Source: Elusimicrobia bacterium GWA2_62_23 (GTDB lineage Bacteria > Elusimicrobiota > Elusimicrobia > Elusimicrobiales > UBA9959). From it: a stretch of 64,000 bases of DNA. The position numbers and the translations under genes are program-made. The DNA lies in the NCBI GenBank assembly GCA_001799635.1, contig MGTV01000049.1, positions 1 to 64,000 of the forward strand. Reading direction: 5' to 3'. The notes beneath the pieces are model-generated. The model searched no databases. It was not told the DNA's origin and worked only from the letters and a program-made list of their open reading frames with translations. Shown here piece by piece: positions 21,404-47,854 of the stretch. Every line of letters starts with the position of its first letter. Position 1 is the stretch's first letter.

Positions 21404-21506
21404 AGGGGACGCTGCACAATAACTCAATAACCTTCCGCAAAGATGCCATCCCTGGAATCAGGATAGCTGTTCCCCATGGTTATTGAGTTATTGTGCAGCG
21501 TCCCCT
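21404..21506. repeat. Inverted-repeat element, type A (AGGGGACGCT ends)
   Basis: Two perfect 29-bp arms (21404-21432 and 21478-21506) face each other around a 45-nt loop. Each arm starts AGGGGACGCT and continues with an 8-nt tandem word, CACAATAA then CTCAATAA. It lies in the divergent gap between serC and the receiver/ATP-grasp gene. It carries no ORF and is a candidate non-autonomous element related to those at 36776-37970 and 47741-47854. No T-run follows, so it is not a simple terminator. Confidence 0.9.
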
Positions 21507-21544
21507 AGCACTGCGCCGGACGGCTTTTTAGTAAAATAAACCCT

Positions 21545-24490
21545 ATGCCGACATCAAAGAAACCGGGCGACTACGAGATAGAATTCGGCGGCTTCGAGAA
21601 GCTCACGCCGCACAGGATCAAGAACGTCCTGATGGTGGCCTCCCTTTACGACTCTTTCCTCCTGGCCGACGACGACCGCCTCAACGAGGCGCTGTTCGGC
21701 GAGCTGCCGGACTCGGGCCGGGGCACGCCCAAGATCACGCGGGTGGCCACGGCCGAGAAGGCCATAGAGAAACTCAAGCGCGGCAACTACGACCTGGTGA
21801 TAGCCATGATCCAGGTGGGCGAGACAGACATGGCCGATTTTTTCCGCGGCCTGAAGGAAGGCCGGCCGGACCTGCCGGTAGTGCTGCTCTCCTTCAACGT
21901 CCAGGACATCAAGAACGTCCTGGACGAGGCCCGGGCGCTGGCCGACGGGATCTGCCTGTGGAGCGGCGACACGCGCATTTTCTCCGCCATCATCAACATC
22001 ATCGAGGACGCCCGCAACTTCGACCACGATTCCAAGGTGGGCGTGCAGGCCGTGCTGCTGGTGGAGGATAATATCAAGTTCTATTCCTCCTACCTGCCCA
22101 TCATCTACACCGAGCTGATGAAGCAGACGCAGATAGTGATGGCCGAGGAACTCAACCCGGCCAAGAAGAACCTGCGCCTGCGCGCGCGCCCCAAGATCCT
22201 TTTCTGCAGCACCTACGAAGAAGCCTGGGCCCTCTACGAAAAGTACAAGGGCAACCTGCTCGGCGTGATCAGCGACATTGAATACCCCAAGGGCGGGGCC
22301 TGCCACAGCGAGGCGGGGCTGGAACTGACCCGCAAGATAAAGGCGGAGAACCCGGACATGCCCGTGCTGCTGCAGTCCTCCAATGCGCGCATGGCCGGCG
22401 CCGCGGCCGGCCTGGGCGCCGCCTTCGTGCATAAGGCCGCCCCGGACCTGGCCAAACAGCTGCGCGCCTTCATCACCCGCTATTTCGGATTCGGCGATTT
22501 CGTGTTCACGGACCAGAACGGCGCGGAACTGGCGCGCGCGGCCGACCTCAACACCATGCTGAAGCTTTTGAAGGTGGTGCCCATCGAGTCGGTGCTCTAC
22601 CACGCCGGGCGCAACCATTTCTCCAAGTGGCTGCTGGCGCGCACCGAGTTCGAAATGGCGTACCACATCCGGCCCAAAAAGATCTCCGAGTTCAACAACC
22701 CCGAGGAACTGCGCAAGTACCTCATCGAGACCATGCACCAGTTCATCTATAAGACCCAGCTGGGCACGGTGCTGAAGTTCGACCGCAAGCTGTTCGACGA
22801 TTCCACGCCGTTCGCCAAGATCGGCTCCGGCTCCATAGGCGGCAAAGCCCGCGGCCTGGCTTTCGTGGACTTCCTGCTCAGCAAGAGCGACCTGGAGACC
22901 CGCTGGCCCGGCGTGACGGTAAGCGTGCCCAATACCGTGGTGGTGGCCACGGACGTGTTCGATTTCTTCATGGAGCAGAACGGCCTGGACTCGGTCATCA
23001 ACGAGAACCACTCCACCGAGGAGACCGCCGCCCTGTTCGAGAAGGCCCGGCTTCCGGATTACGTGACGCGCGACCTGGCCGCGGTGCTCGACAAGATCCG
23101 CGGCCCGCTCGCGGTACGCTCCTCCTCGCTGCTGGAGGACTCCAAGACCCAGCCGTTCGCGGGCGTCTACAAGACCTACATGCTGCCCAACGACAGCCTG
23201 AATCCGGCGCAGCGCCTGGCCGAGCTGGAGCGGGCCATCAAGTTCATCTACGCCTCGGTTTTCTCCCGGGAGGCCCGCGCCTACCGCAAGCTGAACCCGC
23301 TGCTCATAGAAGAGGAGAAGATGGCCGTGGTGATACAGAAGGTGGTTGGACGGCCCTACGGGGACGGGCGCTTTTACCCGGCCTTCGCCGGCGTGATGCA
23401 GTCCTACAACTATTATCCCGTGCCGCCGCTGGAGGCCGAGGACCCGATAGCCCACATAGCCCTGGGCCTGGGCAAGACCATAGTGGAGGGGTACAACGCC
23501 CTGCGTTTCTCCCCCGCCCACCCGCAGAACCTGCACCAGTTCTCCACGCTCACCGACTTCCTGACGAATTCGCAGAAGAAATTCATAGCCCTCAGCGTGA
23601 AAGGCAACGAGCCAGGCCTGAAATACGACGAGGAACCCGCGCTGGTCTCGGCCGGCATAGAGGAAGCGGAGACCGACGGCTCGCTGGAGCTGGTGGGGTC
23701 TTCCTATTCCGCGGAGAACGATAGGGTTTACGACGGTATCTCAAACCCTGGCCGGCGGCTGATCACTTTCGCGCCTATCCTCAAGAACGAGGCCCTGCCG
23801 CTGGCGGACATCCTGGGCACGGTCTCGGACCTGGGCAAGGACGCCATGGGCTGCAACATCGAGATGGAGTTCGCCTGCGACTACGACCCGGCCTCCGGCG
23901 CCGCTTCGTTCAACATCCTGCAGATGCGGCCCATGGTGTCGCGCAGTCCCGTTAAAAAGGTGACCCTTAAGGACATGAGGCCCGATAGCCTGCTGTGCCT
24001 GAGCCCGCAGGCGCTCGGCAACGGCGCCCACCGCGACATAAGCGACCTGATCTACGTGATCCCGGAAAAGTTCGACCCGCTCAAGACCCGCGACATCGCC
24101 GCCGAGATAGGCGAACTGAACGCGCGCCTGCGCGCCGAAGGCCGCTCCTACATCATCATAGGCCCGGGCCGCTGGGGCTCGAGCGACCCGGCACTGGGCA
24201 TCCCGGTGAAATGGAACCACATCTCCGGCTCCCGCATCATCATAGAGGCGGCGTACGGGGACTTCATAGTGGACCCTTCGTACGGCACCCACTTCTTCCA
24301 CAACGTGACGTCGCTCGGCCTGGGCTACCTGACCGTGCACGAGACCGGGCCGGATTCCTTCATAAACTGGGACCGGATACGGGCCCAGGCGCCGGTAGGC
24401 GAAGGCGCGTACATACGCCACCTGCGCTTCCCGGCGCCGCTGGACATCCGCATAGACGGCTCGGAAGGCCGCGGGGCCGTGGCCGCCTGA
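21545..24490 (+). CDS. Receiver-domain/PEP-synthase-type ATP-binding fusion protein
   Basis: 981-residue multidomain protein. Residues about 28-150 and 165-310 form two CheY-like receiver domains (MVASLYDSFLLADDD; AVLLVEDN with VISDIEYP as the second phospho-acceptor region). From about 420 comes a pyruvate phosphate dikinase/PEP synthase N-terminal ATP-binding domain: KIGSGSIGGKARGLAF, then LAVRSSSLLEDS and QPFAGVYKTYML. The C-terminus (IIIGPGRWGSSDP, VDPSYGTHFFHN) is characteristic of this group. I see no swivelling phosphohistidine domain (TSHAAI-type) and no PEP-binding barrel, so it is not a normal PEP synthase. A role as an ATP-using signalling or phosphotransfer protein is inference. 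A TAAAAT box (21532-21537) lies 7 nt before ATG and there is no Shine-Dalgarno. Confidence 0.85.
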   Translation: MPTSKKPGDYEIEFGGFEKLTPHRIKNVLMVASLYDSFLLADDDRLNEALFGELPDSGRGTPKITRVATAEKAIEKLKRGNYDLVIAMIQVGETDMADFFRGLKEGRPDLPVVLLSFNVQDIKNVLDEARALADGICLWSGDTRIFSAIINIIEDARNFDHDSKVGVQAVLLVEDNIKFYSSYLPIIYTELMKQTQIVMAEELNPAKKNLRLRARPKILFCSTYEEAWALYEKYKGNLLGVISDIEYPKGGACHSEAGLELTRKIKAENPDMPVLLQSSNARMAGAAAGLGAAFVHKAAPDLAKQLRAFITRYFGFGDFVFTDQNGAELARAADLNTMLKLLKVVPIESVLYHAGRNHFSKWLLARTEFEMAYHIRPKKISEFNNPEELRKYLIETMHQFIYKTQLGTVLKFDRKLFDDSTPFAKIGSGSIGGKARGLAFVDFLLSKSDLETRWPGVTVSVPNTVVVATDVFDFFMEQNGLDSVINENHSTEETAALFEKARLPDYVTRDLAAVLDKIRGPLAVRSSSLLEDSKTQPFAGVYKTYMLPNDSLNPAQRLAELERAIKFIYASVFSREARAYRKLNPLLIEEEKMAVVIQKVVGRPYGDGRFYPAFAGVMQSYNYYPVPPLEAEDPIAHIALGLGKTIVEGYNALRFSPAHPQNLHQFSTLTDFLTNSQKKFIALSVKGNEPGLKYDEEPALVSAGIEEAETDGSLELVGSSYSAENDRVYDGISNPGRRLITFAPILKNEALPLADILGTVSDLGKDAMGCNIEMEFACDYDPASGAASFNILQMRPMVSRSPVKKVTLKDMRPDSLLCLSPQALGNGAHRDISDLIYVIPEKFDPLKTRDIAAEIGELNARLRAEGRSYIIIGPGRWGSSDPALGIPVKWNHISGSRIIIEAAYGDFIVDPSYGTHFFHNVTSLGLGYLTVHETGPDSFINWDRIRAQAPVGEGAYIRHLRFPAPLDIRIDGSEGRGAVAA

Positions 24491-24491
24491 G

Positions 24492-25148
24492 CTATTTGCT
24501 GATATACTCCAGGCCGTTCTTGGTCTCTTTCACTCCGGGCACGGGCACGGCCCAGATATCGAGGGAAAGCACGTCCTTCACAAAAGCTTTTCGGCCGGCA
24601 TCGCCGGCCTTCTCCCATTCGGGCGAGACGCCCTTGAGGGAACTGCGCAGCAGGAAATCCTTAAGCCCGTCGTCGAAATTACGCTTCAGATCGTCCACCA
24701 GCGGGGAAATGGACAAGCGGACCTTCTTGCGGTAGACCGGCGCCGCCGGCTCCACTATGCCGCCGGTCTCGCCGGCCTCCGGAGGCGGGGCAGCCTGTTT
24801 TTTCTCCTTGGTTATGATCACCCGCCAGGGATTGGTGCGGAAACCGTAATAGTCCACCCGGGTGTTCTCCGTGATGTCCCAGGAAGTGATGGCCCTGACG
24901 CCGTCGGTGAACGTGCGCAGGCTCGGGCGGAAAGAGGCCAGGTCCGAGAAGTCCCAGCGCACCGAATAGTCCAGCCCCACGCGGGACCTGTAAGAATCCT
25001 TCGAGATATTGAGCATCAGCGGGCTCTGGCGCGGCGCCGCGGCCGGCGCGGCAACTGCCGGCGCGGTGGAAACCGCGGCCTCCTGCGCCCCGCAGGGCAC
25101 GGCGCCCGGCGGCAGCAGCAGCAGCAGGAACAGGGCGGTCTTCAGCAT
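24492..25148 (-). CDS. Secreted hypothetical protein
   Basis: About 218 residues. The signal peptide MLKTALFLLLLLPPGAVPCGA is followed by an Ala-rich linker. The mature part contains SRVGLDYSVRWDFSDLASFRP, DYYGFRTNPWRVIITKEKK and a C-terminal helical segment. I do not recognise the family. The ATG at 25148 is preferred to an upstream TTG because the signal peptide begins there; AAAGG lies about 9 nt upstream. It starts 11 bp after the stop of the TPR lipoprotein gene, so they are co-transcribed. It converges on the 21545-24490 gene with one base between the stops. Confidence 0.7.
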   Translation of the reverse strand: MLKTALFLLLLLPPGAVPCGAQEAAVSTAPAVAAPAAAPRQSPLMLNISKDSYRSRVGLDYSVRWDFSDLASFRPSLRTFTDGVRAITSWDITENTRVDYYGFRTNPWRVIITKEKKQAAPPPEAGETGGIVEPAAPVYRKKVRLSISPLVDDLKRNFDDGLKDFLLRSSLKGVSPEWEKAGDAGRKAFVKDVLSLDIWAVPVPGVKETKNGLEYISK

Positions 25149-25159
25149 CCTTTCGCCTT

Positions 25160-26386
25160 TCAAAACCCTTCCTTGGAATAGCGTTCGAGCAGCTCCCGGG
25201 CCAGGCGGCCTTCAGGGTTGAGCTTTACCGCCTCGTCGAGCGCGGTCTTGAACTCGCGCTCCAGCTTGGCCGTGTTGCGCAGGCGGCGGCCTTCCACGGC
25301 GCGCAGGGCGGCCAGGTCGGCGGCCTTGAGGGCGTAAAGCTCGCCCAGGAATCTCTCGGGCTTTATGAAGGGCAGCGGCTCGGCGCCCTTGAGCGTGAGG
25401 GCGATGGCCGCGTCGGCCTCGCCGTAGGCCTTGTACAGCAGCTGGGCGGAGGCTTTGGGGTCGCCGCCAGCGGCGGCCATGGCGGCGCCTTCCTGGAAGT
25501 CGGTTTCGGCCAGCTGGCGTCGGGCGTCCAGCAGGTCGGGGTTATGCTGCAGCGCGCCCTGGTAGTAGGCGCGGGCCTGGGAATATTCCTTTTTCACGAG
25601 CGCGGCGTTGCCCTGCACCGCCATTTCCACCGACTTTTTGAAAGCGGGGTCCGAGCCGGCGCGGCCGTTGAAGGCGGCGGCCCTGGCCACGGCCGCAGGC
25701 ACGCGCAGCGCGTCGGCGGAGGAGACCTCCGCGGCGGAAACCAGGGCGGCGGGAGCGCCCTGCTTTACCGTCGGGTCGGAGGCGGCGAGCTTCTCGGCCT
25801 CGGCCTTCAGGGCGGCGACATCGGCGGCGGCGGCGGAGTACGCGCCGGCCTTTTCAAAAAAGAGTTCGGGGGCTTTGTTCATGGCCAGGTAGGCTTCCGA
25901 CTCCAGCCAGGGCACGGCCGAAGCGCGGGCCGCCAGCGCGGCCAGCAGGGCGCAGTATTTAACGGCGCCCTCTTCGAGCTGGGCCAGGCCGCGGGCCTGG
26001 GCGGCGGCGGCTTCCAGGGCGGCGGTGTCGCCTCGGGCGGCGTAGAAGTTTATGAGGGCCTCGCGCGCGTGCCAGTTCAGCGGGGCCAGCTCCAGGGCGC
26101 GCCTGAGGGAGGCCGACTGCAGCTCCTGGCCGCGGGAGAAACCGGCCCGGCCTGCGGCGTCGCCCAGTTCTTCCAGCAGCGCCACGGCCTGCTCGGAACC
26201 GGGCGCGTAACCGAGCGCCTTGTCCACGGCGGCGAAGGCGGCTTCCAGGTCGGCCGGGGCCGGGTTCTGCGCGGCGGCGGCGGGGCGGGCCTTGCCGAGG
26301 TAGTGTTCGGCGGCTTTCTGTTTGGCGAGGCCGCAGCCGGACAGCAGCACGGCGGCCAGCAGGAGCGCGGGCAATGTGTTTTTCAT
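25160..26386 (-). CDS. TPR-repeat lipoprotein
   Basis: 408-residue lipoprotein: short basic N-terminus, hydrophobic core and lipobox LLSGC. The rest is Ala/Leu/Glu-rich helix with TPR-like units, for example AALKVKKEYSQARAYYQGALQHNPDLLDARRQL-type spacing in the C-terminal half and EFKTALDEAVKLNPEGRLA near the end. The ATG at 26384-26386 overlaps the stop of the flavin-reductase gene by one base (TGATG), which fixes the start; the open frame upstream of it is only the shadow of that gene. Likely a scaffold in the periplasm or outer membrane; partner unknown. Confidence 0.8.
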   Translation of the reverse strand: MKNTLPALLLAAVLLSGCGLAKQKAAEHYLGKARPAAAAQNPAPADLEAAFAAVDKALGYAPGSEQAVALLEELGDAAGRAGFSRGQELQSASLRRALELAPLNWHAREALINFYAARGDTAALEAAAAQARGLAQLEEGAVKYCALLAALAARASAVPWLESEAYLAMNKAPELFFEKAGAYSAAAADVAALKAEAEKLAASDPTVKQGAPAALVSAAEVSSADALRVPAAVARAAAFNGRAGSDPAFKKSVEMAVQGNAALVKKEYSQARAYYQGALQHNPDLLDARRQLAETDFQEGAAMAAAGGDPKASAQLLYKAYGEADAAIALTLKGAEPLPFIKPERFLGELYALKAADLAALRAVEGRRLRNTAKLEREFKTALDEAVKLNPEGRLARELLERYSKEGF

Positions 26387-26886
26387 CAGAATTTCTCCGC
26401 CTTGACTATCTTGCCGAAATAGACGGTGTGGATGTCGCCGCCGCCGGGGTAATAGCGGGAGACGGCCGGCTGGGCCGCGGTTTCCACGGCGAGGTCGGTG
26501 GTGCCGTAGAGTTCGCACTGGTAAACCAGTTCGCAGCCGTCTATGTACTTTACCTTGTGGCCGTAGCCTTCCTTCAGGGTGAAGCCGCAGACGCGCGCCT
26601 TGTCGTACTCTTTCCCGGATCTGGTGCCGCAGTAGGCGAGTTCTTTCTGCATGCCGCCCGGACGCGGCACGCAGACGGTGAAATGGGAGGCTTTGGAGAG
26701 GAGGTCGTGGGTGTGGCGCGAGGGGCGCACGAGCACGGTCATGATGGGCTGGCCCCAGACCACGCCTATCTGCGCCCAGCCGATGGTCATCACGTTGACG
26801 CGGCCTATCTTGTCCTCGACCACGAGGAAAGCCCCGGGCCCGTCCAGCGCCGCGCACAGCTTATCGAAATGTTCGGAATATTTCAT
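26386..26886 (-). CDS. Flavin reductase-like FMN-binding protein
   Basis: 166 residues with the flavin-reductase-like split-barrel fold: GPGAFLVVEDKIGRVNVMTIGWAQIGVVWGQ at the N-terminus, VLVRPSRHTHDLLSKASHFTVCVP in the middle, and a C-terminal DIHTVYFGKIVKAEKF strand. Proteins of this type bind FMN and may reduce flavin or act as oxidoreductases; the substrate is not evident. First gene of a three-gene unit (flavin protein, TPR lipoprotein, secreted protein). The 115-nt structured repeat lies upstream, between it and the tdh gene. Confidence 0.85.
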   Translation of the reverse strand: MKYSEHFDKLCAALDGPGAFLVVEDKIGRVNVMTIGWAQIGVVWGQPIMTVLVRPSRHTHDLLSKASHFTVCVPRPGGMQKELAYCGTRSGKEYDKARVCGFTLKEGYGHKVKYIDGCELVYQCELYGTTDLAVETAAQPAVSRYYPGGGDIHTVYFGKIVKAEKF

Positions 26887-26918
26887 ATTTCCTTAAGCAT
26901 CGCTATTGCCCAAAAGCA

Positions 26919-27033
26919 CGGGCGGGGTGTTGCCCCGAGCGCCAGTTGGGGAGGGGAGGCTCCAACCGCAGGTTGGAGGGGAACCGCGCAACGGTTCCCT
27001 GCAGTCCTGGCGAGCGGGGTAACACCCCGCCCG
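26919..27033. repeat. 115-nt cloverleaf-like inverted-repeat structure
   Basis: Outer arms of 27 nt (26919-26945 and 27007-27033) pair with three mismatches. Between them are two compact hairpins: CTCCAACC-GCA-GGTTGGAG near 26960-26978, and GGGAACCG-CGCAA-CGGTTCCC near 26979-27000. Each outer arm also contains its own small palindrome (CGGGG-TGTTG-CCCCG and CGGGGT-AAC-ACCCCG). It lies between tdh and the flavin reductase gene, both on the minus strand. It could be a mobile palindromic repeat or a structured RNA. It has no run of T on either side. Confidence 0.75.
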
Positions 27034-27044
27034 GGCTGCCGCGA

Positions 27045-28076
27045 CTAGATGTTCGTCCAGTCGAGGATGATCTTGCCGGACTTGCCGGAGCTCATGATCT
27101 CGAAGCCTTCCTTGAAGTCCTTGGCGGCGAAGCGGTGCGTGATGACCGGCTTGATGTCCAGGCCGCTGGTGAGCATGGCGCACATCTTGTACCAGGTCTC
27201 GAACATCTCGCGGCCGTAGATGCACTTCATGGTGAGCGCCTTGAAGATGACGGTGCTCCACGGGATGGTGGTGTTGGGCGGCAGGATGCCGAGCAGGGCC
27301 AGCTTGGCGCCCATCTTCACGTTGGAGATCATGTCGTTGAAGGCCTGCGCGTTGCCGCTCATCTCCAGGCCCACGTCGAAGCCCTCGGTCATGCCGAGCT
27401 GCTTCATGACCTCCGGGAGTTTCTCCTTGCGGGAATCCACCACGGTCTTTATGCCCAGCTTGCGGGCCAGGTCCATGCGGTAATCGTTCACGTCGGTGAT
27501 CACGGTGTGGCGCGCGCCCACGTGGTTGGCTATGGCGCCCGCCATGATGCCTATGGGGCCGGCGCCGGTTATCAGCACGTCCTCGCCTATCAGGTCGAAG
27601 GAGAGCGCCGTGTGCACGGCGTTGCCGAGCGGGTCCAGGATGGCGGCCTCGTCGTCGGACACGCCCTCGGGCAGCGGGAACACGTTCTCGGCCGGGATAG
27701 CCAGGTACTCGGCGAAGCAGCCGGGGCGGTTCACGCCCACCCCCCTGGTATTGATGCAGAGGTGGCGGTGGCCGGCCTTGCAGTTGCGGCAATGGCCGCA
27801 CACTATGTGGCCTTCGCCGGACACGCGCTCGCCTATGGTGTGGCCCTTCACGGCCTTGCCCAGCTCGGCGATCTCGCCCACGAACTCGTGGCCCACGTGC
27901 ATGGGCACCGGGATGGTCTTCTGCGCCCAGTCGTCCCACTGGTAGATGTGGATGTCGGTGCCGCAGATGGCGGTCTTCTTTATCTTGATGAGGACCTCGT
28001 TGTCCCCTATCACGGGCTTGGGCACGTCCTGCAGCCAGAGGCCTTTTTCGGCTTTAGCTTTAACAAGTGCTTTCAT
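27045..28076 (-). CDS. tdh: L-threonine 3-dehydrogenase
   Basis: Zinc-dependent medium-chain dehydrogenase of 343 residues that oxidises L-threonine to 2-amino-3-ketobutyrate with NAD. Catalytic zinc ligands Cys38 (AICGTD) and His63-Glu64 (GHE) are present, with structural zinc cysteines at 93, 96, 99 and 107. The NAD fold starts at [12 protein letters not shown]. The signatures [13 protein letters not shown] and [12 protein letters not shown] are typical of threonine dehydrogenase rather than other alcohol dehydrogenases. AAGGAG lies about 12 nt before ATG. No kbl (ketobutyrate-CoA ligase) gene is adjacent. Confidence 0.95.
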
Positions 28077-28195
28077 AAGAGCTGTTCTCCTTAAGAAGAT
28101 CGAAGGACCGGCGCTACGTGGATATTATAGAAATTGTGGAAGCCGTGAGCGCGACAAAAACAAGGGCGGTTCTTTTGGTATTATTGTAGGCAGAC

Positions 28196-29002: not shown

Positions 29003-29059
29003 CCCGGCTCACGCCGGAGAAACTCCGTCCGGCCGCGGGAAAATGCTAATCTTGAAAAC

Positions 29060-31816: not shown

Positions 31817-31834
31817 TTTATATACTAGGGCCTC

Positions 31835-32461: not shown

Positions 32462-32477
32462 ACCGGAGCGCCAAAAG

Positions 32478-32508
32478 AAAAGGCCCCTTAACGGGGCCTT
32501 TTTTTTGT
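32478..32508 (+). terminator. Rho-independent terminator after marC
   Basis: Stem AAAAGGCCCC / GGGGCCTTTT around TTAAC, followed by more T residues. It lies 17 bp past the MarC stop and may also work for the convergent kinase gene ending at 32522, since the A-run on its left reads as T on the minus strand. Confidence 0.9.
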
Positions 32509-32521
32509 TCCGGGCGCGCGG

Positions 32522-36772: not shown

Positions 36773-36775
36773 GTA

Positions 36776-36804
36776 AGGGGACGTTCATTCCTAATTCCCA
36801 AATT
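36776..36804 (+). repeat. REP-like repeat, type B copy 1 (degenerate)
   Basis: Begins AGGGGACGTT and continues with an imperfect ATTCCTA/ATTCCCA tandem. It starts 4 bp after the stop of the secreted protein gene and is in direct orientation with copy 2. Confidence 0.85.
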
Positions 36805-36832
36805 GCTCACTAACCTCAGTCAGAATCAGAAG

Positions 36833-36855
36833 CCCCGGGGAAACCCGGGGTTTTT
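36833..36855 (+). terminator. Rho-independent terminator between REP copies 1 and 2
   Basis: Stem CCCCGGG / CCCGGGG around GAAA, followed by five T. It belongs to the gene ending at 36772 and is flanked on both sides by type B repeats. Confidence 0.9.
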
Positions 36856-36860
36856 GATTG

Positions 36861-36888
36861 AGGGGACGCTCATTCCTAATTCCTAATT
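36861..36888 (+). repeat. REP-like repeat, type B copy 2
   Basis: Begins AGGGGACGCT, then a 7-nt word (ATTCCTA) repeated twice and ATT. The stop codon and last Asn codon of the transposase gene lie inside it (36883-36888). It is the left inner end of the RAYT element, inverted relative to copies 3 and 4. Confidence 0.9.
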
Positions 36889-37788
36889 ACTACCGGCCAG
36901 CAGCGCGCGGCCTTTCGTTATTAGTTTAGATATCCCGCTTTGCTTAATTTCTAATTCATCCATTAGCTCCTGGCCGCTGGCCCCGGCCTGCTCACGGCAC
37001 AAATAGCAGTAGATCGCCCGCGCCTTGGCCGCCGCCCTCATGTGGCTCGGGCGGAGGATATCCCCGCAGGCCACGCCTGTCAATCTGGCCGCCTCCGCAA
37101 GAAGTTCCGCCCGCGGCCGGAGAGGGCGCTCTTCAACCCTTTCAGCTTTTCTTAGAATATCCTCTATGAGATCTTTTGTCTCTCCAGTGAATTGAGGGTT
37201 ATGCCTCCGGCCTTCCGCCCTTTCGCGCTCCAATTCCGCGGCCTTTACCTCCATAGCCGCGATGTAACGCGCCATGGCTGTCTCGCCGCCGCCGTAATGC
37301 TTCAATAAGCCAGACGCGCAAAGTATGCCGTCAGTATCGCCTGTGACCAGCGCCCTGTGGCCGCACCAAAGATAGTTCTCCAGGTCCCGCAGGTCCTTCA
37401 CCAGCCCCGCTCTCAGCGGATTCAAGTGTATGTAGGGTGCTGCCTCCAGAAAATATTCCTCGGAGTTGCAGAGGATAGCTTTGTACCTGTTCTGGAACAG
37501 GTGCCCGCACCGGTTGCGGCGCAGGTTGTAGTTGACCGCGTAGCCGGTCATCACGTGATGCATGAGCTCGCTGAGCGGGCGCTCGCCGCGGAGCAGCAGG
37601 AAGTGGAAGTGGTTCGGCATCAGGCACCAGGCCAGGCACTTGGCGCCGCAGCGCTTCAGCCAAGCCTCGAACCGTTCAAGGAAATCCGCATAATCCTCGT
37701 CCTGCGTGAAGATCTCCCTGCGCTCTATCCCGCGAGAGATCACATGGTAATACTGACCCGGCACGTCTATCCTGGCTTGTCTTGGCAT
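36883..37788 (-). mobile_element. REP-associated tyrosine transposase (RAYT) gene
   Basis: Y1 HUH single-strand transposase of the RAYT/IS200-like class, 301 residues. The N-terminal MPRQARIDVPGQYYHVISRG is the family start, the HUH motif is His60-Phe-His62 (PNHFHFLLL), tyrosines 83 and 87 lie in the expected catalytic helix, and HLFQNRYKA and YIHLNPLRAGLV are diagnostic. A C-terminal helix-turn-helix-like domain (SGQELMDELEIKQSGISKLITKG) probably binds DNA. The ATG at 37786-37788 is chosen because GGGGGG precedes it and the family begins there; upstream residues in frame come from copy 3. The gene looks intact. It likely moved the flanking AGGGGACGYT repeats. Confidence 0.92.
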
Positions 37789-37879
37789 AATCCCCCCTAA
37801 CCTATGCCAATATCCTAGCACGCCAACCCGACAAAGGTCTGTCGGCCAGAAAATAGCCATCGGGCTGTCCAGGCGGCTC

Positions 37880-37907
37880 AATTAGGAATTAGGAATGAGC
37901 GTCCCCT
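37880..37907 (-). repeat. REP-like repeat, type B copy 3
   Basis: Same 28-bp unit as copy 2 in reverse orientation; on the plus strand it ends AGCGTCCCCT. Preceded by GGCGGCTC, as is copy 4. Right inner end of the RAYT element. Confidence 0.9.
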
Positions 37908-37908
37908 C

Positions 37909-37939
37909 CAAAAAAAGAACCGCCGGGTTGCCCCGGCGG
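37909..37939 (-). terminator. Rho-independent terminator between REP copies 3 and 4
   Basis: Stem CCGCCGGG (37920-37927) / CCCGGCGG (37932-37939) around TTGC. The A-rich 37909-37918 reads as a T-run on the minus strand. It ends the operon whose last gene is the SEC-C protein and is bracketed by two repeats, mirroring the left side. Confidence 0.88.
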
Positions 37940-37942
37940 CTC

Positions 37943-37970
37943 AATTAGGAATTAGGAATGAACGTCCCCT
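37943..37970 (-). repeat. REP-like repeat, type B copy 4
   Basis: 28-bp unit, reverse orientation, ending AACGTCCCCT on the plus strand. It directly abuts the stop codon of the SEC-C gene (37971-37973). Confidence 0.9.
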
Positions 37971-38453
37971 CTACTTTCCGCAGCACTTTTTGTGTTTTTT
38001 GCCGGAACCGCAGGGGCAGGGGTCGTTGCGGCCCACCTTGGGCTCTTCCCGGCGCACCGTCTCCACCTTCACGGTCTCGCCGCCCTGCAGCACCTCGGGG
38101 TGCTTCTTCATCCACTTCTTCACTTCCTTGTCGTCGTGGATGTTCACGTTGTCCAGGAGCATCTTGCGGTAGATGCCGATGATGAGCGCGCGCATCTGCG
38201 GGTCCTTGGCCTGCGCCAGGATCTCGGGGGACATCTTGTCCAGCTCGGCCGCCAGTTCGTCGTCGGTCTTCTCGGAGGCCGGCTTGTTCTTGGCGGGCGC
38301 GGCCGGCGCGGGGGCCGCCGTGGCTTTAGCGGCCGCGGGCGCCTGGGGCGCCGGGGCTGCGGGCTGCGGCTTGAAAGCCGGGGCCTCAGGAGAGGGCTGG
38401 TGCTTCTTCTCCTCTTCCTTACCTACCAGTTTCTTGATGAAATTCCAGGCCAT
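37971..38453 (-). CDS. SEC-C zinc-motif protein
   Basis: 160 residues. The C-terminus [18 protein letters not shown] is the SEC-C zinc-binding motif found in SecA and many small proteins. The N-terminus [17 protein letters not shown] is amphipathic; an Ala/Pro-rich linker (about 25-60) follows, then a helical domain ([25 protein letters not shown]) with predicted amphipathic helices. Function unknown; SEC-C motifs usually bind proteins or ribosomes. An AAGGAG lies 9 nt before ATG, and the gene starts 12 bp after ptb, so it is the last gene of the butyrate operon. Confidence 0.85.
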
Positions 38454-38465
38454 TAGGTATTCTCC

Positions 38466-39395: not shown

Positions 39396-39429
39396 GTTTT
39401 CCTCCGGAGTAAGTTTAAGTTGAAACAAA

Positions 39430-40545: not shown

Positions 40546-40553
40546 GCTTTCCC

Positions 40554-41672: not shown

Positions 41673-41708
41673 TTTTAGTTCCGGTGCGGCCGTCTCGAGT
41701 TAATTTAT

Positions 41709-41737
41709 AATATAATAGAAACCGCGCCCCGTGCAAA
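41709..41737 (-). promoter_or_regulatory. Candidate promoter for the DUF4185-buk-ptb operon
   Basis: TTTGCA, 17-bp spacer, TATATT on the minus strand, within a very AT-rich stretch (TATATTATAAATTAA). Divergent from the FN3 gene promoter at 41779-41806. Confidence 0.5.
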
Positions 41738-41778
41738 CCACGCACAGGGAGGCGTTTCTTTCTGTAACATATTAGTCA

Positions 41779-41806
41779 TTGATATTTAACGCGCGTTTAT
41801 TAGACT
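41779..41806 (+). promoter_or_regulatory. Promoter of the FN3 protein gene (leaderless)
   Basis: TTGATA (41779-41784), 16-bp spacer, TAGACT (41801-41806). The ATG at 41813 falls exactly where transcription should begin, and no Shine-Dalgarno is present. Confidence 0.7.
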
Positions 41807-41812
41807 ATAACC

Positions 41813-44800
41813 ATGCTCCGATGGGCCAGATCGTTGACAGCCGCCGCGGCCTGCCTGATGGCAGCCGCGGTTCCCGCTCACGCGGTCGCTCCCACACCCT
41901 CCGTAACCGGGACCACCTTTAACAGCGTAAGCGTGTCGTGGACCGGCGGAACCGCCCCTTTCATAGCCGCCATCTCCACCTCGCCCGCGTTCACCGTGAC
42001 CACGGCCAGCGGTGTGGCCGCCTCCCCGCTCACTTATTCCCCGCTCGATCCCAACACCACCTACTACTTCAAGGTCCAGAGTTCCGGCGATACGTTCTAC
42101 TCCGTCACGCGCACCACCTCCACCAGGGCGGCAACGCCCACCGCGCCCTACTTCATCTCCTCCTACTTCACGGCGGAATCCTCCTACACGGCCGGCGCGC
42201 AGGTAGGTTGGCTGGTGAATGGCAATCCGGAGTGGACCCGCTACGACATAGAATATGCCGATAATGCCGGCTTTACCGGCTCGGAGATCCTGCCCAAGAA
42301 CTACCCGCCGGTCACCATGGGCGGCCTGAACGCCAACACCACCTATTACTTCCGGGTACGCGCGCGCGGCGTGGGCGGCACCGCCACGGCTTTTACCGCT
42401 GACATTTCCACCGCCACGCTGGCCCTGAAGCTGCCCGCCCTGGGGGAAACCGTCTACGAAAGCAGCGTCACCGTTCACTGGACCTCCGTGAACGACAGCT
42501 CTATACAAGCGCTCAAGTCGGAAGGCTACAGACTGCACCTCTCCACCACGGCCTCGGAGTTGATCACCCCGGCCAGCACCTATTTCAACACTGCCGACGC
42601 CGCCGCGGAGTCGGTGAACCTGGAGCCGCTGGATATCAACACCACCTACTACTACCGCGCCGGTACCCTGAACTGGAACGCCGCCTCCAACCTCTCCGAC
42701 ACCCGCAGATTCACCACGCTGGGGGCCAAGGTAACGGGTCTGGCTCTGGTCTCGGTCACCGAAGGCGCCTCCCTGCTGTCGTGGACGGCGCTCTCCGGCG
42801 GCGAAGCCATGGGCTACCGCCTGGAAGCCTCCAGTTCCGGCTTCTCTTCGCCCATGACAGAGCCGTCTTCCACCACTTACGCGCTGGCCAAGAACTCGCT
42901 GGCGGTCTCCGGGCTGAACGCCAACACCACTTATTATTTCCGGGCCTCTTCGCTCAACCAGGCTTTCACGCCCAACTACACCGCGGCCCTGTCCTCCATA
43001 ACGCTGGCCAGCCCGCCATCGGCCAACCTTACCACCATAGTGCCGCAAACCGACGCGCTCACGGTCTTCCTCTCCCCCCTGCCGGCCGCGCCCCAGAACG
43101 CCACCTGCGAAGGCTACCGCCTGGAGGTCTCCTCCACGGCTTTCGGCGGCACCGGCGTGCTCCTCTCTTCGGTCACCTTTGATTCGCAGGCGGGCTTCCT
43201 GTCCATCGGCGGACTTAAGCCCAACACCCTCTACAACCTGCGGCTGGGCACCCTGAACTGGGCCGGCACCCCGAATTATTCTGCCCTGGACCAGACCCTC
43301 ACCCTGCTGCCGCCGGCGCCGGCGGGGCCGGCCCTGGGCCAGGTCTGGCAGTCCAGCGCCACCGTTTACTTCAGCGCCGAGGGCGGCGGCGACAACTACC
43401 TGATAGAGGCTTCCACCTACCAGTTCTTCAACTACGTGCACCGCAGTTCCGCCACGCCCTCCGTTGGCGTGACCACGCTGACCGTCTCCGGTCTGGAAGG
43501 GAATACCCGCTACTATTTCAGGGCCGGGGCCCTCTACGGCGGGACCACGGTGTACGCCAACACGACGCCGGCTTACCGCTACACCCTGCCGCTGCCCCTG
43601 GTCCTGAACGCCGAGCCGTTCCCCGGGGTCTTCTACTCCAGCGCCACCATGGCCTGGACCCCGCTGGCCGCCGCGCCGCCGGAGGCCACGGCCGAATCCT
43701 ACCTGCTGGAGGCCGCCACCACCCAGGCCTTCACCACGGTGCTCTTCTCCTCGCAGAGCGTCTCCGTGACGGCGGCGTCCCTGTCGCTGCAGGGACTCTC
43801 CCCCAACACCTCCTATTACTTCAGGGCAGGATCGCTCAACGCGCAAGGCACCGCCAATTACTCCGTGGCGCCCGCCACCGCCACGCTGGCCAACCCGCCG
43901 GTGCAGCAGGGCTTCTCGGTGGCCCCGTTCACCATGAGCCTGACCTGGCTGCCGAACTCCAACCCGGCCGACACGCTCTACCTGGTGCAGATCTCCTCCA
44001 ATTCCGACTTCCGGCCGCCGGTGCATTCTTCGGGCACGTTCCTGTCTTCGGCCACTTTCTCAGGGCTGGTCCCCAACACCACTTACTACCCGGTGGTGAC
44101 GGCCTACAACCGCTTCAACCGCGCCACCCCCACAGTGGTCTTCTCTTCCATGGCCACCGGCGCCTTCCACCCGGCCTACGCCCCCTTCTCCGACGTGGGA
44201 GTATCCTCCGTGACCGTGGACTGGCTGCCAGGTACCAACCCGGCGGACACCTGGTACCGCGCCCAGATCTCCTCCAATACCGATTTCTCCGGGACCGTGC
44301 ACTCCTCCATAACGGCCAACCTCTACGCAGATTTCAACGGCCTGGTCTCCAACGCGAGTTATTACATGCGCGTTTCGGCGCTGAACCTGACCGGCGTCCC
44401 CACCGAACCTGCAGTGGACCTGGGTGCCGCGCTGACGCTGCCTGCCACGCCCTATATACTGGCGGAAGCCCAGACCTTCACCGGGCCGCTGACGGATGGG
44501 TTCACGGTCAACTGGACCGCCAACAACAATTCCTCCCACACCGTGTACAACGTGCAGGTCTCTACGAAGTCGGATTTCTCCGTGGTCAATTCCTCCCTGT
44601 CGGTGCAAGCACTGGCCTGTTCCTTCACGGACCTCCTGATAGACACCACCTACTTCGTCCGCCTCCAGGCCAGGGGGCAGACAGGCATACTCTCCCCATT
44701 CGAGACCGCGTGGTCCACCAAGACCGTGCTCTACTCGCAACTCAACGCGGTGGCGCTGCAGGACAGCGTGATCTCGCTGCAGACCTCCTACGGTCTCATC

Positions 44801-45433
44801 TCGGTCCACATACCGCGCGGCGCCATCGGCATCTCCACCCGCCTGCAGCTGCAGCCGGTTTCCGCTTTCCCCGCGCCGGTGTCGGCGGTTTCGGCGCTAT
44901 CGCCCACGGGCATAGGCCTTTCCATAACCCACTTCCCCCCCACGCTGGTGCTGGACGCCATCACCATCACCCTGCCTTATAGGCCGAGCGACCTGCCGGG
45001 CGGCACCGACAGGTCCAAGCTGATCCTGGCCCTTTACGACGAGGGGCACGGCGTCTGGGTGCCGCTGCCCTCCAATTCCGACACGGCCAATGACCGGGTC
45101 ATCGGCCAGACCTGGCACCTGTCCACGTTCCAGCTCATGCAGGCCACGAGCGAGACGGGCCTGGCCAACGTCAAGATCTATCCCAACCCGTACCGGCCCA
45201 ACTCGGTCTCCGACGTGATGCACTTCACCAACCTGACCCCTTACGCCAGGGTGAAGATCTACACTTTCCTGGGCGAGCTGGTGCGCAGCATCCGCGCCGA
45301 CGTCAACGGCATGGCGTACTGGGACGGCCTCAATGACGACGGCCGCAAGGCGGCCAGCGGCGTCTACATAGCTTTCATACAGACCAGCGACAAGAAAGGC
45401 AACAAGAGCTTCAAGGTGGCGGTGGAGAGGTAA
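41813..45433 (+). CDS. Secreted ten-repeat FN3 protein with FlgD-like C-terminal domain
   Basis: 1206 residues; signal peptide about 1-25 (ending AHA). Ten FN3-like units follow, each marked by an NTTYYFR-type strand (for example LNANTTYYFRVRA, LSPNTSYYFRAGS, LIDTTYFVRL). A ZU5-like region (ISVHIPRGAIGIS onward) lies near 1000-1100. The C-terminal 85 residues (VKIYPNPYRPN ... YWDGLNDDGRKAASGVYIAFIQT) match the FlgD-Ig/type IX secretion sorting-tail fold. The gene for a PorV/PorQ-like outer-membrane protein starts 4 bp later. Together this suggests an exported surface protein, but no T9SS core gene is in the window. Confidence 0.88.
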   Translation: MLRWARSLTAAAACLMAAAVPAHAVAPTPSVTGTTFNSVSVSWTGGTAPFIAAISTSPAFTVTTASGVAASPLTYSPLDPNTTYYFKVQSSGDTFYSVTRTTSTRAATPTAPYFISSYFTAESSYTAGAQVGWLVNGNPEWTRYDIEYADNAGFTGSEILPKNYPPVTMGGLNANTTYYFRVRARGVGGTATAFTADISTATLALKLPALGETVYESSVTVHWTSVNDSSIQALKSEGYRLHLSTTASELITPASTYFNTADAAAESVNLEPLDINTTYYYRAGTLNWNAASNLSDTRRFTTLGAKVTGLALVSVTEGASLLSWTALSGGEAMGYRLEASSSGFSSPMTEPSSTTYALAKNSLAVSGLNANTTYYFRASSLNQAFTPNYTAALSSITLASPPSANLTTIVPQTDALTVFLSPLPAAPQNATCEGYRLEVSSTAFGGTGVLLSSVTFDSQAGFLSIGGLKPNTLYNLRLGTLNWAGTPNYSALDQTLTLLPPAPAGPALGQVWQSSATVYFSAEGGGDNYLIEASTYQFFNYVHRSSATPSVGVTTLTVSGLEGNTRYYFRAGALYGGTTVYANTTPAYRYTLPLPLVLNAEPFPGVFYSSATMAWTPLAAAPPEATAESYLLEAATTQAFTTVLFSSQSVSVTAASLSLQGLSPNTSYYFRAGSLNAQGTANYSVAPATATLANPPVQQGFSVAPFTMSLTWLPNSNPADTLYLVQISSNSDFRPPVHSSGTFLSSATFSGLVPNTTYYPVVTAYNRFNRATPTVVFSSMATGAFHPAYAPFSDVGVSSVTVDWLPGTNPADTWYRAQISSNTDFSGTVHSSITANLYADFNGLVSNASYYMRVSALNLTGVPTEPAVDLGAALTLPATPYILAEAQTFTGPLTDGFTVNWTANNNSSHTVYNVQVSTKSDFSVVNSSLSVQALACSFTDLLIDTTYFVRLQARGQTGILSPFETAWSTKTVLYSQLNAVALQDSVISLQTSYGLISVHIPRGAIGISTRLQLQPVSAFPAPVSAVSALSPTGIGLSITHFPPTLVLDAITITLPYRPSDLPGGTDRSKLILALYDEGHGVWVPLPSNSDTANDRVIGQTWHLSTFQLMQATSETGLANVKIYPNPYRPNSVSDVMHFTNLTPYARVKIYTFLGELVRSIRADVNGMAYWDGLNDDGRKAASGVYIAFIQTSDKKGNKSFKVAVER

Positions 45434-45437
45434 TGAG

Positions 45438-46415
45438 ATGAGAACTGAGGCGACAGGGAGGGCTCTGCGCGCGGCTTTAGCGCCGGCGCTGCTCCTTTGC
45501 GCTCTGGCGGCCGCGGCCGGAGCTCAGGGCTTCGACGCCGGCTCCGCCGGCACCGCCTCCGCCCAGTTCCTCAAGATCGCCTCCGGCGCGCGCGGCGCGG
45601 CCCTGGGCGAGGCCTACTCCGCCCTGGCCGACGACGCCTTCGCGCTGGACTGGAACCCGGCCGGCCTCATCAACATCAAGAAGAACTCCATGGTCTTCAT
45701 GCACGCGCCCTACCTGGCCGGCACCTACGCCGATTTCTTCGCCTACGCCGAGACCGCCGGCGAGGTGGGCTCCTGGGGCGTCTCGTTCAAGTACATGAAC
45801 TACGGCAAGATCAGCCAGACCGACTCCAGCGGCTTCGAACTGGGGTCCTTCTCCCCCACGGACATGGCCGTGAACGTGGGCTTCGCCTGCTACGTGACGG
45901 GCTTCAACAAGGACCCGGAGGAGCGCTTCGTGCTGGGCGCCACCGGCAAGTTCGTGCGCTCCAAGATCATCTCGGCCGACAACACCGTGTCCGCCGACAT
46001 CGGCCTCAACTTCCCCTACATGTTCGACAACCGCTTCCTCATGACCATGTCGGCCCAGAACATCATGGGCACCCTGCGCTACGACAAGGAAGAGGCGCCG
46101 CTGCCGCTCATCCTGCGCCTTGGCACCCTGACCAAGCTGGGCGACCACTTCAACCTGACCGCCGACATAGTGGCTGCGCGCGACAATATCCCGTTCCTGG
46201 CCATGGGCGGCGAGGCCCGCGTCCGGGTCTACAGCGAGATGGACGTTTTCCTGCGCGCCGGCTTCAACACCCGCGCGGTGAGCGACCTCAGCGGCGCCCG
46301 CAACATGGCGGTAGGCGGCGGCCTGCGCTACGGCTCCTATAACATAGACTACGCCTTCTCCCCCTTCGGCGACCTGGGCACCGTGCACCGCATCTCGGCG
46401 GCCCTGGTCTTCTAA
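45438..46415 (+). CDS. PorV/PorQ-like outer-membrane beta-barrel protein
   Basis: 325 residues; signal peptide about 1-30. The mature start FDAGSAGTASAQFLKIASGARGAALGEAYSALADDAFALDWNPAGL is the signature of PorV/PorQ-type (FadL-superfamily) barrels, with later VGFACYVTG, FNLTADIVAARDN and a final strand ending in Phe (HRISAALVF). In Bacteroidetes PorV shuttles T9SS cargo to the attachment complex. Here it follows an FN3 protein with a sorting-type C-terminus by 4 bp, which fits a cargo/shuttle pair. AGAGG precedes the ATG. Confidence 0.88.
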   Translation: MRTEATGRALRAALAPALLLCALAAAAGAQGFDAGSAGTASAQFLKIASGARGAALGEAYSALADDAFALDWNPAGLINIKKNSMVFMHAPYLAGTYADFFAYAETAGEVGSWGVSFKYMNYGKISQTDSSGFELGSFSPTDMAVNVGFACYVTGFNKDPEERFVLGATGKFVRSKIISADNTVSADIGLNFPYMFDNRFLMTMSAQNIMGTLRYDKEEAPLPLILRLGTLTKLGDHFNLTADIVAARDNIPFLAMGGEARVRVYSEMDVFLRAGFNTRAVSDLSGARNMAVGGGLRYGSYNIDYAFSPFGDLGTVHRISAALVF

Positions 46416-46432
46416 ACCTTTCCTCCGCAAAT

Positions 46433-46462
46433 AAAAAAAGCCCGGTTGTCCGGGCTTTTTCT
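46433..46462. terminator. Bidirectional rho-independent terminator
   Basis: AAAAAGCCCGG (46435-46445) and CCGGGCTTTTT (46450-46460) around TTGT, with A- and T-runs on both sides. It serves the PorV-like gene (+) and the transporter gene ending at 46478 (-). Confidence 0.9.
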
Positions 46463-46477
46463 TTCCACGGCCGGCGG

Positions 46478-47722
46478 CTAGTTCGCGGGCTCCCTCCTGG
46501 CGGTCAGCGGGAAGGACATGGCCAGCCACGCGCCGGAGAAGACTATCCCCAGCGCCGGGTAGAAGGCCGGGGCGATGGTGCCCACGGTCTTCATCCCCGA
46601 CACCCACACCGCCGTGACGCCCTTGGCGAACCGGTAGGTGAAGGCGTCGGCCACCTGCTTGGCGCGGTAGCGCGTGTCATAGGAGAACGGGATGTAGAGC
46701 GTCTCCTTGGAAGCGCGGAAGATGGAATAGTCCATGCCCTTGAACAACAGGAACGCCGCCGAGGCCAGCCCCAGCGTGGGGTAGAGCAGCAGGAGCGCGC
46801 AGGTGACTATGTGCACGGCCGGGATGGCCGTGAGGATGCCGCGGCGCGGGATATAGCGCAGCAGCAGCGGCGTGAGCAGGAACTGCATGGAGAACGAGAA
46901 CACGTTCACGTACATCCAGAAATTGCCCAGGTACGCCGTGCGCTGGTCTTTTAGCGGCATGTAGTCCTGCACCAGCTGGGTGAACCTGAAGTCCAGCGCC
47001 GTGGCCACCACCTGCGCCGCGAAGATGATGAAGGCGATGAACAGCACCGTGCGGTTCTCTTTGAGGATGCTCAGGTGCAGGTGACCTTTTTTACCGCCAG
47101 CCTCTTCCGCCGTCGGCTTGGGCTCGCCCGCGGCGTTATAGCTCAGCCAGGACAGCACGGCCGCCGGCAGGATGATGAGCGCCGCGAACAGCACGAACTT
47201 GTCCGTGCCCAGGCCCATCACGTAGCGGCTCAGCAGCCAGCCGCCTATGAGCGAGCCCAGCGCGCCGAGGCCGGCCACCGGCCCGTTGAAGACCTTGCCC
47301 TCCTCGTCCTGCAGCACGCTGTTTATGAAAGACCAGTACTGCTCGGAAATTATCACCACGTAGGATTCTTTGAACACCAGCAGGAAGAAGGCGAACCAGC
47401 GCCCCGCGGAACCCAGCATGGCCCAGGCCAGCACGAAGAACGCCGCGCTGCCCAGCATGGAAACGACCATAGCCTTCTTGGCGCCGACGGCGGAGAGCAT
47501 GCGCCCGTAGCCGTAGATCATGGCGGCCATCATGAAAGGCACGCAGGCTATGGCGTAGGGCTTGTACTCCGCGCCGAACTGGTCCATGAAGATGGATTCG
47601 GCGGGAGAGCGGATGAATTCGTAGCCGCAGAAAAGGAACATGGCGGACAGGCCCGCCAGGAAAACCGCCCCGGCCACGTGCCGGCCCCGTTCAGTCTTTA
47701 ACGCCGCGAGAAGTGTGCTCAT
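46478..47722 (-). CDS. MFS/nucleotide-translocase-like membrane transporter
   Basis: 414 residues with about 11-12 membrane helices. FKESYVVIISEQYWSFINSVL and YIPFSYDTRYRAKQVADAFTYRFAKG resemble the ATP/ADP carrier (Npt1/Npt2, Tlc) branch of the MFS superfamily, known from obligate intracellular bacteria but also present as divergent members in free-living ones. The substrate cannot be assigned. GATAAT (complement of 47729-47734), in an extended -10 context (TGCGATAAT), lies 6 nt before the ATG, with no Shine-Dalgarno, so the mRNA is probably leaderless. The type C inverted-repeat element begins 18 bp upstream. Confidence 0.7.
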   Translation of the reverse strand: MSTLLAALKTERGRHVAGAVFLAGLSAMFLFCGYEFIRSPAESIFMDQFGAEYKPYAIACVPFMMAAMIYGYGRMLSAVGAKKAMVVSMLGSAAFFVLAWAMLGSAGRWFAFFLLVFKESYVVIISEQYWSFINSVLQDEEGKVFNGPVAGLGALGSLIGGWLLSRYVMGLGTDKFVLFAALIILPAAVLSWLSYNAAGEPKPTAEEAGGKKGHLHLSILKENRTVLFIAFIIFAAQVVATALDFRFTQLVQDYMPLKDQRTAYLGNFWMYVNVFSFSMQFLLTPLLLRYIPRRGILTAIPAVHIVTCALLLLYPTLGLASAAFLLFKGMDYSIFRASKETLYIPFSYDTRYRAKQVADAFTYRFAKGVTAVWVSGMKTVGTIAPAFYPALGIVFSGAWLAMSFPLTARREPAN

Positions 47723-47740
47723 ATTTCAATTATCGCAAAA

Positions 47741-47854
47741 AGGGGACGCTGATGACTATATGACTATTCGTCATCAGCGTCCCTCCTCCGACCATGCCGC
47801 TATTACGTGCCCGCCCGGTGGTCCGAAATAGTCACATAGTCATCAGCGTCCCCT
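47741..47854. repeat. Inverted-repeat element, type C (AGGGGACGCT ends)
   Basis: Two 28-bp arms (47741-47768 and 47827-47854) with one mismatch, separated by 58 nt. Each arm starts AGGGGACGCT and carries an 8-nt tandem word (ATGACTAT twice in the left arm). The central part holds a shorter inverted copy (GTCATCAGCGTCCCT, 47770-47784) that can pair with the left arm instead, giving a nested hairpin. It fills the gap between the M29 peptidase and transporter genes, ending one base before the peptidase stop codon. Confidence 0.9.

Follow-up and report, generated by a model that had tools for sequence, protein, structure and literature searches.

Inverted-repeat elements with a common GGGGACG foot and a variable tandem word in Elusimicrobia: comparison between genomes suggests an address for the DnaA-like tail of the matching RAYT transposase

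The stretch of DNA analysed here (the window: 64 kb of contig MGTV01000049.1, labelled C49, from Elusimicrobia bacterium GWA2_62_23, labelled G000, with a 2.98-Mb genome assembly that is 92% complete) contains inverted-repeat elements that agree in their outermost bases and differ in a short word repeated in tandem just inside them, and it raises the question of what such a word might be for. A sequence-only reading of the window had assigned three arm types, A, B and C, to elements starting at 21404, 36776 and 47741, where we locate them as well, and had proposed one class of mobile palindromic element in which the end is constant and the inner word is replaced. The comparison between genomes presented here suggests that the word is an address for the DnaA-related tail of the matching transposase, a RAYT protein. 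Judged from the sequences compared, the tandem word is probably an evolved, RAYT-specific counterpart of the DnaA box, recognized by the transposase's own tail, with the foot being common to all families.

The ends recur throughout the genome. The search for further copies of AGGGGACGYT, by which the sequence-only reading was to be tested, returned 64 exact sites (35+29) compared to five for the pattern read backwards, and chance resemblance of the element ends is ruled out by the genome counts set against reversed patterns and shuffles. The shorter AGGGGACG is hardly enriched by itself (116 versus 109), so the signal is carried by the YT and the sequence following it. An inverted partner (at least 18 of 26 letters alike, at most 3.3 kb away) exists for 50 of the 64 sites, in most cases within a short element, and about half of the remaining 14 resemble chance sites. 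The stretches around the sites comprise 25 inverted pairs measuring 57-125 bp, and in 17 of these the arms are identical in at least 25 of 26 letters. Element interiors (1-69 bp) look mostly unrelated, with a common interior in three B' copies by eye; given the near-identity of arms between copies, selection or conversion appears to maintain the arms, while the interiors drift or are captured. Each main word of the genome is preceded by GGGGACG and three bases: CACAATAA CTCAATAA in A, ATTCCTA twice in B/B', ATGACTAT twice in C and TTGACTAT twice in D, with 14, 29, 5 and 13 exact arms, respectively, and none for the reversed controls. The three types of the sequence-only reading are thus real but not the full set, for there are at least four tandem words in this genome (A-D) and many others in its relatives. 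A lone arm at G000:C34:20279-20306 (locus L040), reading CTTCCTAT CTTCCTAA, is a possible fifth; the matching RAYT is known in this analysis solely from genome G014 (L169). AGGGGACGYT was found in all 25 genomes of the same genus (G000 included), with maxima of 87 and 75, and the counts in G004, G012, G018 and G023 are not above the reversed controls. The 16 genomes of the same order have 0-5 each, not exceeding controls.

Occupied and empty sites, with loci from 11 relatives compared per site, support the mobility of these elements. The A element is missing in all eight relatives that are alignable at its site. At the C site, the same element is found in G042, with nearly identical arms and, by eye, a clearly diverged interior; G044 and G016 are empty, G022 carries a different insert without the arms, four relatives lack the right flank and three involve gaps of 869-1143 bp that were left unaligned. 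The B site holds the RAYT-bearing element in G042 and G022. The nine other relatives align there with short gaps, and six of the nine are empty behind a terminator-like hairpin. The same intergenic gap accommodates a D-word element in G044 and TTGAGTT-type elements in G009 and G024, both of which also encode TTGAGTT RAYT genes (L179, L180), so that a single insertion site has been used by three words in different genomes. Elements differing in their word, together with the six empty relatives at this site, bear out the proposal of one mobile class in which the end stays and the inner word is exchanged. The position of the B site (window 36776-36870 and 37905-37970) behind a terminator-like hairpin in relatives, together with its use by elements of three words, suggests that terminator T-tracts may be preferred for insertion. 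Of the flank duplications and empty sites for which the sequence-only reading had advised a search, the empty sites were found in the relatives, but no flank repeat above chance was present in the 25 elements; the exact empty-site junctions are unreadable, the intergenic flanks having diverged. Insertion that leaves no target-site duplication is characteristic of IS200/IS605-type transposition.

The transposase of the window is encoded inside the B element and displays the motifs HFH at residues 60-62, Y119 and NP at 123-124; H60, H62, Y119, N123 and P124 are invariant in 44 sequences. The protein matches Pfam PF01797 (E 3.5e-10) and scores 75.2 bits with NCBIfam NF047646 (cut-off 80), and its tail (about residues 226-299) matches PF08299 with an E value of 0.0014, below the cut-off. 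Based on an AlphaFold model (pLDDT 90.7, pTM 0.72), Foldseek retrieved TnpAREP 4er8 (E 3.1e-7) and, at rank 47, the DNA-binding domain of M. tuberculosis DnaA, 3pvp (E 0.0079, TM 0.60 by target). A C-terminal profile built from 22 RAYTs places six DnaA sequences at the top among solved structures, with E values from 6e-9 to 1e-4 (3pvp, E 6.3e-9; 2hcb, 1l8q, 2z4r, 1j1v and 8btg). The RAYT of L056, from Elusimicrobia bacterium GWB2_63_22, is 92% identical. The RAYT gene which the sequence-only reading had seen within type B is there, but it is not special to B: the genome has five PF01797 matches, and three of these genes are enclosed by A, B and D arms, respectively. Their products show weak C-terminal matches to Bac_DnaA_C (E 9.5e-6, 0.0014 and 0.0061), all below the Pfam cut-off. 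The A arm enclosing the RAYT gene on contig C12 is identical to the left arm of the A element in the window. The D-word RAYT element (L035, G000:C15:15730-18818) also contains, by eye, a partial D arm and a frame resembling a piece of an IS110-type transposase. The fourth RAYT (L033, G000:C8:245039-245437) is without the DnaA-like tail and is surrounded by AAAATAGGGACAGACACC repeats (the GGGACAGACACC repeat) without a tandem word; next to the fifth PF01797 gene, a short one on contig C2, we found no such repeat. The C-word RAYT was not found in this assembly and is present in G014, G005 and G009.

Word and transposase occur together across genomes. Arms of type A are found in all five genomes with an A-word RAYT (5-27 each; G047 is counted, although its gene is in two pieces) compared to five of 27 others (1-5; Fisher 0.0013). 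For type B, the figures are 3/3 (3-29 arms) versus 4/29 (6-19; Fisher 0.0071), and for type C they are 3/3 (6-20) versus 3/29 (2-5; Fisher 0.0040). The 13 D arms of this genome are accompanied by a D RAYT.

How general the arm plan is was assessed with a sample of RAYT loci consisting of the best 80 of at least 558 relatives from named genomes, 30 plus 20 loci of the genus and the RAYT loci of this genome. It yields 115 unique proteins of at least 200 residues, shorter pieces being left out. Both GGGACG arms are readable for 74 of the 115, and the remaining 41 are without GGGACG arms under the criteria used. With a threshold of at least six of seven matches in the better arm, a tandem word is present in 55 of the 74 loci, distributed over several phyla, and its period is 8 in 42 of the 55. 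Left arms taken alone give 48/74, as compared with 5.7+-2.2 in 200 shuffles (largest 13), and over offsets 4 to 12 the mean self-identity of the arms has a sharp peak at 8 (0.52, as against 0.22-0.31 elsewhere). Words above threshold lie beside RAYTs in records named Desulfobacterales, Nitrospiria, Actinomycetes and Methylomirabilota (NC10), among others. Nine RAYTs chosen by hand from the alignment lack the C-terminal helix-turn-helix (HTH), and none of the seven with readable arms has a tandem word. A further six HTH-bearing RAYTs have another foot: GGTGYCAGGC, GGGGTCAG or GGGACAG. Ends starting with GGTGYCAGGC belong to L134 (1590-2585), L128 and L129, the latter two being below the tandem threshold.

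The recognition helix of the tail varies with the word. KQSGIS goes with ATTCCTA, SDSAVS with TTGACTAT, TQSAVS with ATGACTAT, NSGAIS with CACAATAA and SSGAVS with CTTAAACG or CTTCCTAT. The association was analysed in 73 loci, 37 from Elusimicrobia and 36 from elsewhere (L154, with its HTH in another frame, was left out). In partial Mantel tests of word against HTH distance given the catalytic domain, r was 0.27 in Elusimicrobia, 0.28 in the others and 0.32 overall, each with p=0.0005, the minimum possible with 2000 permutations. The reverse control, word against catalytic domain given the HTH, gave 0.15, 0.10 and 0.12 (p 0.012, 0.041 and 0.001) in the same order. In Elusimicrobia, 14 of 15 RAYTs with SG at the equivalents of DnaA residues 434-435 have a C-initial word, as opposed to one of 22 without SG (Fisher 3.5e-8). 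A tree of the 37 proteins, built from their N-terminal 225 residues, shows four changes of SG, and a topology uniting all SG rows was rejected (p-AU 0.0053); SG and C-words have therefore probably become paired more than once.

In E. coli DnaA, base-specific residues are 399, 423, 432-435 and 438-439, according to PMC5043019. Their equivalents in RAYTs were assigned through the C-terminal profile alignment, in which the match for residue 399 may be shifted by one position or more. Among 267 columns ranked by association with the word letters (near-invariant columns, such as the artefactual residue 73, being excluded), the equivalents of 435, 434 and 439 take ranks 1, 6 and 9 for one arm and 1, 20 and 4 for the other in all 73 loci; that of 433 ranks 20 and 51, and those of 399, 423, 432 and 438 range from 31 to 172. 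For the two arms, the contact set exceeds all other columns in Elusimicrobia (p=1.8e-5 and 1.9e-5) and in all 73 loci (0.0013 and 0.0025), and it exceeds the other HTH columns in Elusimicrobia (0.0004 and 0.001; other phyla, 0.10 and 0.11). Shared ancestry raises all columns, hence the informative part is the ranking among columns, which is no substitute for a phylogeny-corrected test.

The words themselves bear some likeness to the DnaA box. Of 146 arms, 83 have two 8-mers that coincide in at least five letters, and the 79 distinct words from these arms yield a plurality consensus of (T/C)T(G/T)A(A/C)TA(A/T). Its opposite strand, about TTATTCA(A/G), compares with the DnaA box TTATNCACA and fits seven of eight covered positions on one strand, with N counted as a fit. 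The string GTGGATAA, the complement of TTATCCAC, agrees with the words in 3.56 letters on average (2.12+-0.13 when shuffled), within the top 0.9% of letter permutations. We have moderate confidence that the words are degenerate descendants of the DnaA box.

Based on this evidence, the end of the element may be understood as composed of two parts. The constant outer foot, AGGGGACG(C/T)T, would present the single-stranded DNA to be cut by the HUH/Y1 domain at the base of a long hairpin, into which the two arms are presumed to pair. A few bases inside the foot, the two head-to-tail words, usually of 8 nt, would become double-stranded once the arms have paired and could then be read by the C-terminal HTH of the RAYT, similar to DnaA domain IV, most likely with a separate monomer on each word. 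We propose that recognition helix and word change together, so that each RAYT mobilizes mainly the elements of its own word, with the foot staying common. The balance tips slightly in favour of the wider generalization, drawn from sequence comparison, that RAYTs of group 1 use a two-part end code, in which the common GGGGACG foot serves the catalytic domain and a captured DnaA domain IV reads a tandem word that can be re-coded, new families arising through joint changes of this word and of the equivalents of 434, 435 and 439.

Several observations weigh against an address function of the word, or narrow it. Nineteen of the 74 loci are below the tandem threshold, and only 38 of the 74 reach p <=0.05 singly. 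Among the six HTH-bearing RAYTs with another foot, only L134 has a tandem word (a perfect 8-nt repeat, in one arm); with five failing the threshold, possession of the domain does not by itself entail a tandem word. The likeness to the DnaA box is moderate, and among five strings the shifted and opposite-strand forms do not stand out. Some families are orphans: the 13 D-word arms of G044 stand in a genome with no RAYT match, and B arms occur without a B-word RAYT in G009 (19), G014 (11), G024 (7) and G045 (6), where the gene may have been lost or may lie in sequence missing from the assembly. The rule linking SG to C-words fails outside Elusimicrobia, with a single SG row and 12 of 35 non-SG rows C-initial, and only three supported independent SG switch pairs are available, a number for which the sign test (median p 0.5) is powerless. 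In the other phyla alone, the excess of the contact set over other columns falls short of significance (p=0.12 and 0.051), and relative to the other HTH columns it is weak in all 73 loci (p 0.029 and 0.051). Columns 85, 43 and 183, outside the HTH, rank high, as expected from shared ancestry, and the linker correlates with the word given the HTH in Elusimicrobia (r=0.30, p 0.0005; others 0.01), showing that ancestry is incompletely removed.

These last points lead to the reading in which word and HTH merely share ancestry, the arms drifting with the gene and the tail not recognizing the word. A RAYT is inherited together with its arms, and the distance in the catalytic domain correlates with word distance in Elusimicrobia (r=0.53), as does, given the HTH, the linker. 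Yet a partial correlation persists with catalytic domain and linker both controlled (r=0.26-0.32), the contact columns of Elusimicrobia stand above the remaining HTH columns, the SG rows with C-words do not constitute one clade, and two word copies kept alike in a fixed register are unexpected under drift; we regard shared ancestry without recognition as unlikely. The DnaA-box-like consensus could alternatively mean that the words are boxes for host DnaA or replication forks, with the RAYT tail as a separate fork-targeting module, and fork targeting was indeed proposed for the DnaA-like domain in PMC6006769. One genome, presumably with one host DnaA, nevertheless has at least four different words; the words follow the HTH of the RAYT over its catalytic domain and, in Elusimicrobia, its contact residues; and single words such as TTCCTAA deviate from the box, which together render this explanation quite improbable. 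Least of all do we expect that the palindromes are kept as RNA hairpins, acting as terminators or in mRNA stability, with the word repeats merely forming an A+T-rich stem. The hairpins are strong, and by eye terminator-like hairpins occur inside the B element and, in relatives, precede the B site; but the Rfam scan of the window at the gathering threshold gave no match to a known RNA family, insertions differ between relatives, arms of the same word enclose RAYT genes, and neither a fixed period of the word nor its match to a transposase tail would be required of an RNA stem. In our judgement, these findings fit best with a word that is read by the tail of its own RAYT.

The features of the window are collected in the table. 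Type B had been described as one element with ATTCCTA twice; the word is present, but there are two nested pairs of ends, and the second word of the outer left arm is damaged. Likewise, type C has the arms and the word described for it but is not a plain inverted repeat, on account of the extra copy inside. In predicted folds of the single-stranded DNA, the arms pair into one long hairpin in the A element (z -11.4), in the C element (z -8.3) and in a further B copy, with z between -8.3 and -11.4 for the three. A small palindrome at 2089-2117, AGGGGACGTTATTATCGGGGGCGTCCCCT, bears the foot without a tandem word. By eye, the A element (region 21340-21560) has on one side a TTTGACAACC-like box, which aligns in most of the eight relatives, and on the other, about 40 bp downstream, the start of a gene. 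The relatives have 36-68 bp between box and gene start as compared to about 149 bp here, so the A element may alter a promoter.

Table. Elements, arms, words and transposase gene in the 64-kb window (positions in the window)
Feature	Position	Strand	Remark or basis
Type A non-autonomous element	21404..21506	.	103 bp, perfect 29-bp arms
A tandem word CACAATAA CTCAATAA, left arm	21415..21430	+	sequence
Outer type B element, AGGGGACGTT ends	36776..37970	.	contains the inner element and terminator-like hairpins (by eye)
Outer left B arm	36776..36804	+	second word damaged; sequence
Inner type B element, AGGGGACGCT ends	36861..37907	.	surrounds the RAYT gene; sequence
Inner left B arm, ATTCCTA ATTCCTA	36861..36888	+	sequence
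RAYT gene, 301 aa	36883..37788	-	Y1 domain and DnaA domain IV-like helix-turn-helix
Inner right B arm	37880..37907	-	sequence
Outer right B arm	37943..37970	-	sequence
Type C non-autonomous element	47741..47854	.	partial left-arm copy, inverted, inside the element
C tandem word ATGACTAT ATGACTAT, left arm	47752..47767	+	sequence

The importance of an address function, if true, would be twofold. It would explain how several element families with a common end coexist inside one genome, and the publicly available RAYT loci, at least 558, would constitute paired helices and sites, hence a natural record of specificity change in DnaA-type proteins: a multi-phylum set of re-specified recognition helices with the cognate sites attached.

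Regarding known systems, among the papers listed in our literature search for a description of the tandem word we judged just two, PMC3733652 and PMC6006769, to be pertinent to RAYTs that have a DnaA-like domain or long terminal inverted repeats (TIRs). In the main-text passages covered, neither describes a tandem word within the repeats; 'direct repeat' is missing from both main texts and 'tandem' from that of PMC6006769. A search for the bare string AGGGGACG gave nothing relevant by title among the matches listed. TIRtrons, described by Di Nocera in 2013, are RAYT genes with long TIRs, not GTAG REPs, and according to PMC3733652 some of their TIRs carry a common GGGGWSAS motif and some form dispersed families. 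The elements here are TIRtrons, short and non-autonomous or RAYT-bearing: as in TIRtrons or TIRYTs, their A, B and D arms enclose RAYT-like tyrosine transposase genes, and the arms of all four types are dispersed as families. They differ in the foot, GGGGACG(C/T)T, which is one base off GGGGWSAS (seventh base G, not A), and in the two-word plan, the link to the transposase tail and the apparent switching of words, none of which is described in the PMC3733652 text. The supposition that the design was undescribed in this lineage therefore holds for the tandem word in these two texts and not for the rest, since several phyla have the plan and TIRtrons have been published.

The transposases look like TnpAREP subclass 2.1 of Quentin 2018, which equals RAYT group 1 and, according to PMC6006769, is the second-largest subclass, characterized by HUH and Y---NP motifs, a C-terminal Bac_DnaA_C/HTH and the absence of REP-like sequences adjoining the gene. 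The A, B and D RAYTs have the same motifs and, in all three cases, the sub-threshold Bac_DnaA_C match; their genes likewise adjoin no REP-like sequences. That article notes that the TIR motif is unlike the DnaA box and considers two possibilities for the DnaA-like domain, namely that it has no part in recognizing the ends or that it evolved towards a new target. Directly inside the motif, the tandem word is a concrete candidate answer to the question thus left open. New here is the fixed arm plan of a GGGGACG foot and two tandem words, mostly of 8 nt, TIRtrons and the DnaA-like tail having been known already.

REPINs and the E. coli-type RAYT-REP systems consist of short palindromes thought to be spread by a RAYT, with each RAYT having its own repeat family. 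Short palindromic copies and a word family per RAYT are features in common, whereas the present elements lack a conserved GTAG tag and have a long-stem arm with two tandem words and an extra DNA-binding domain on the RAYT. The base preceding the GGGG foot is A at 43 of 50 ends, T precedes it at 27 and G comes before that at only 13, so GTAG is at most occasional. CGTC REPs have an unpaired CGTC tag, a stem of 8-9 bp and no transposase; here, CGTC is within a paired arm of about 26-29 bp that encloses transposase genes. With DnaA domain IV and the DnaA box (PMC5043019, PMC11511705), the similarity lies in fold and profile match and in a consensus word resembling TTATNCA; the difference is that the tail is fused to a transposase, that residues and words vary by family, and that each arm offers two sites in tandem.

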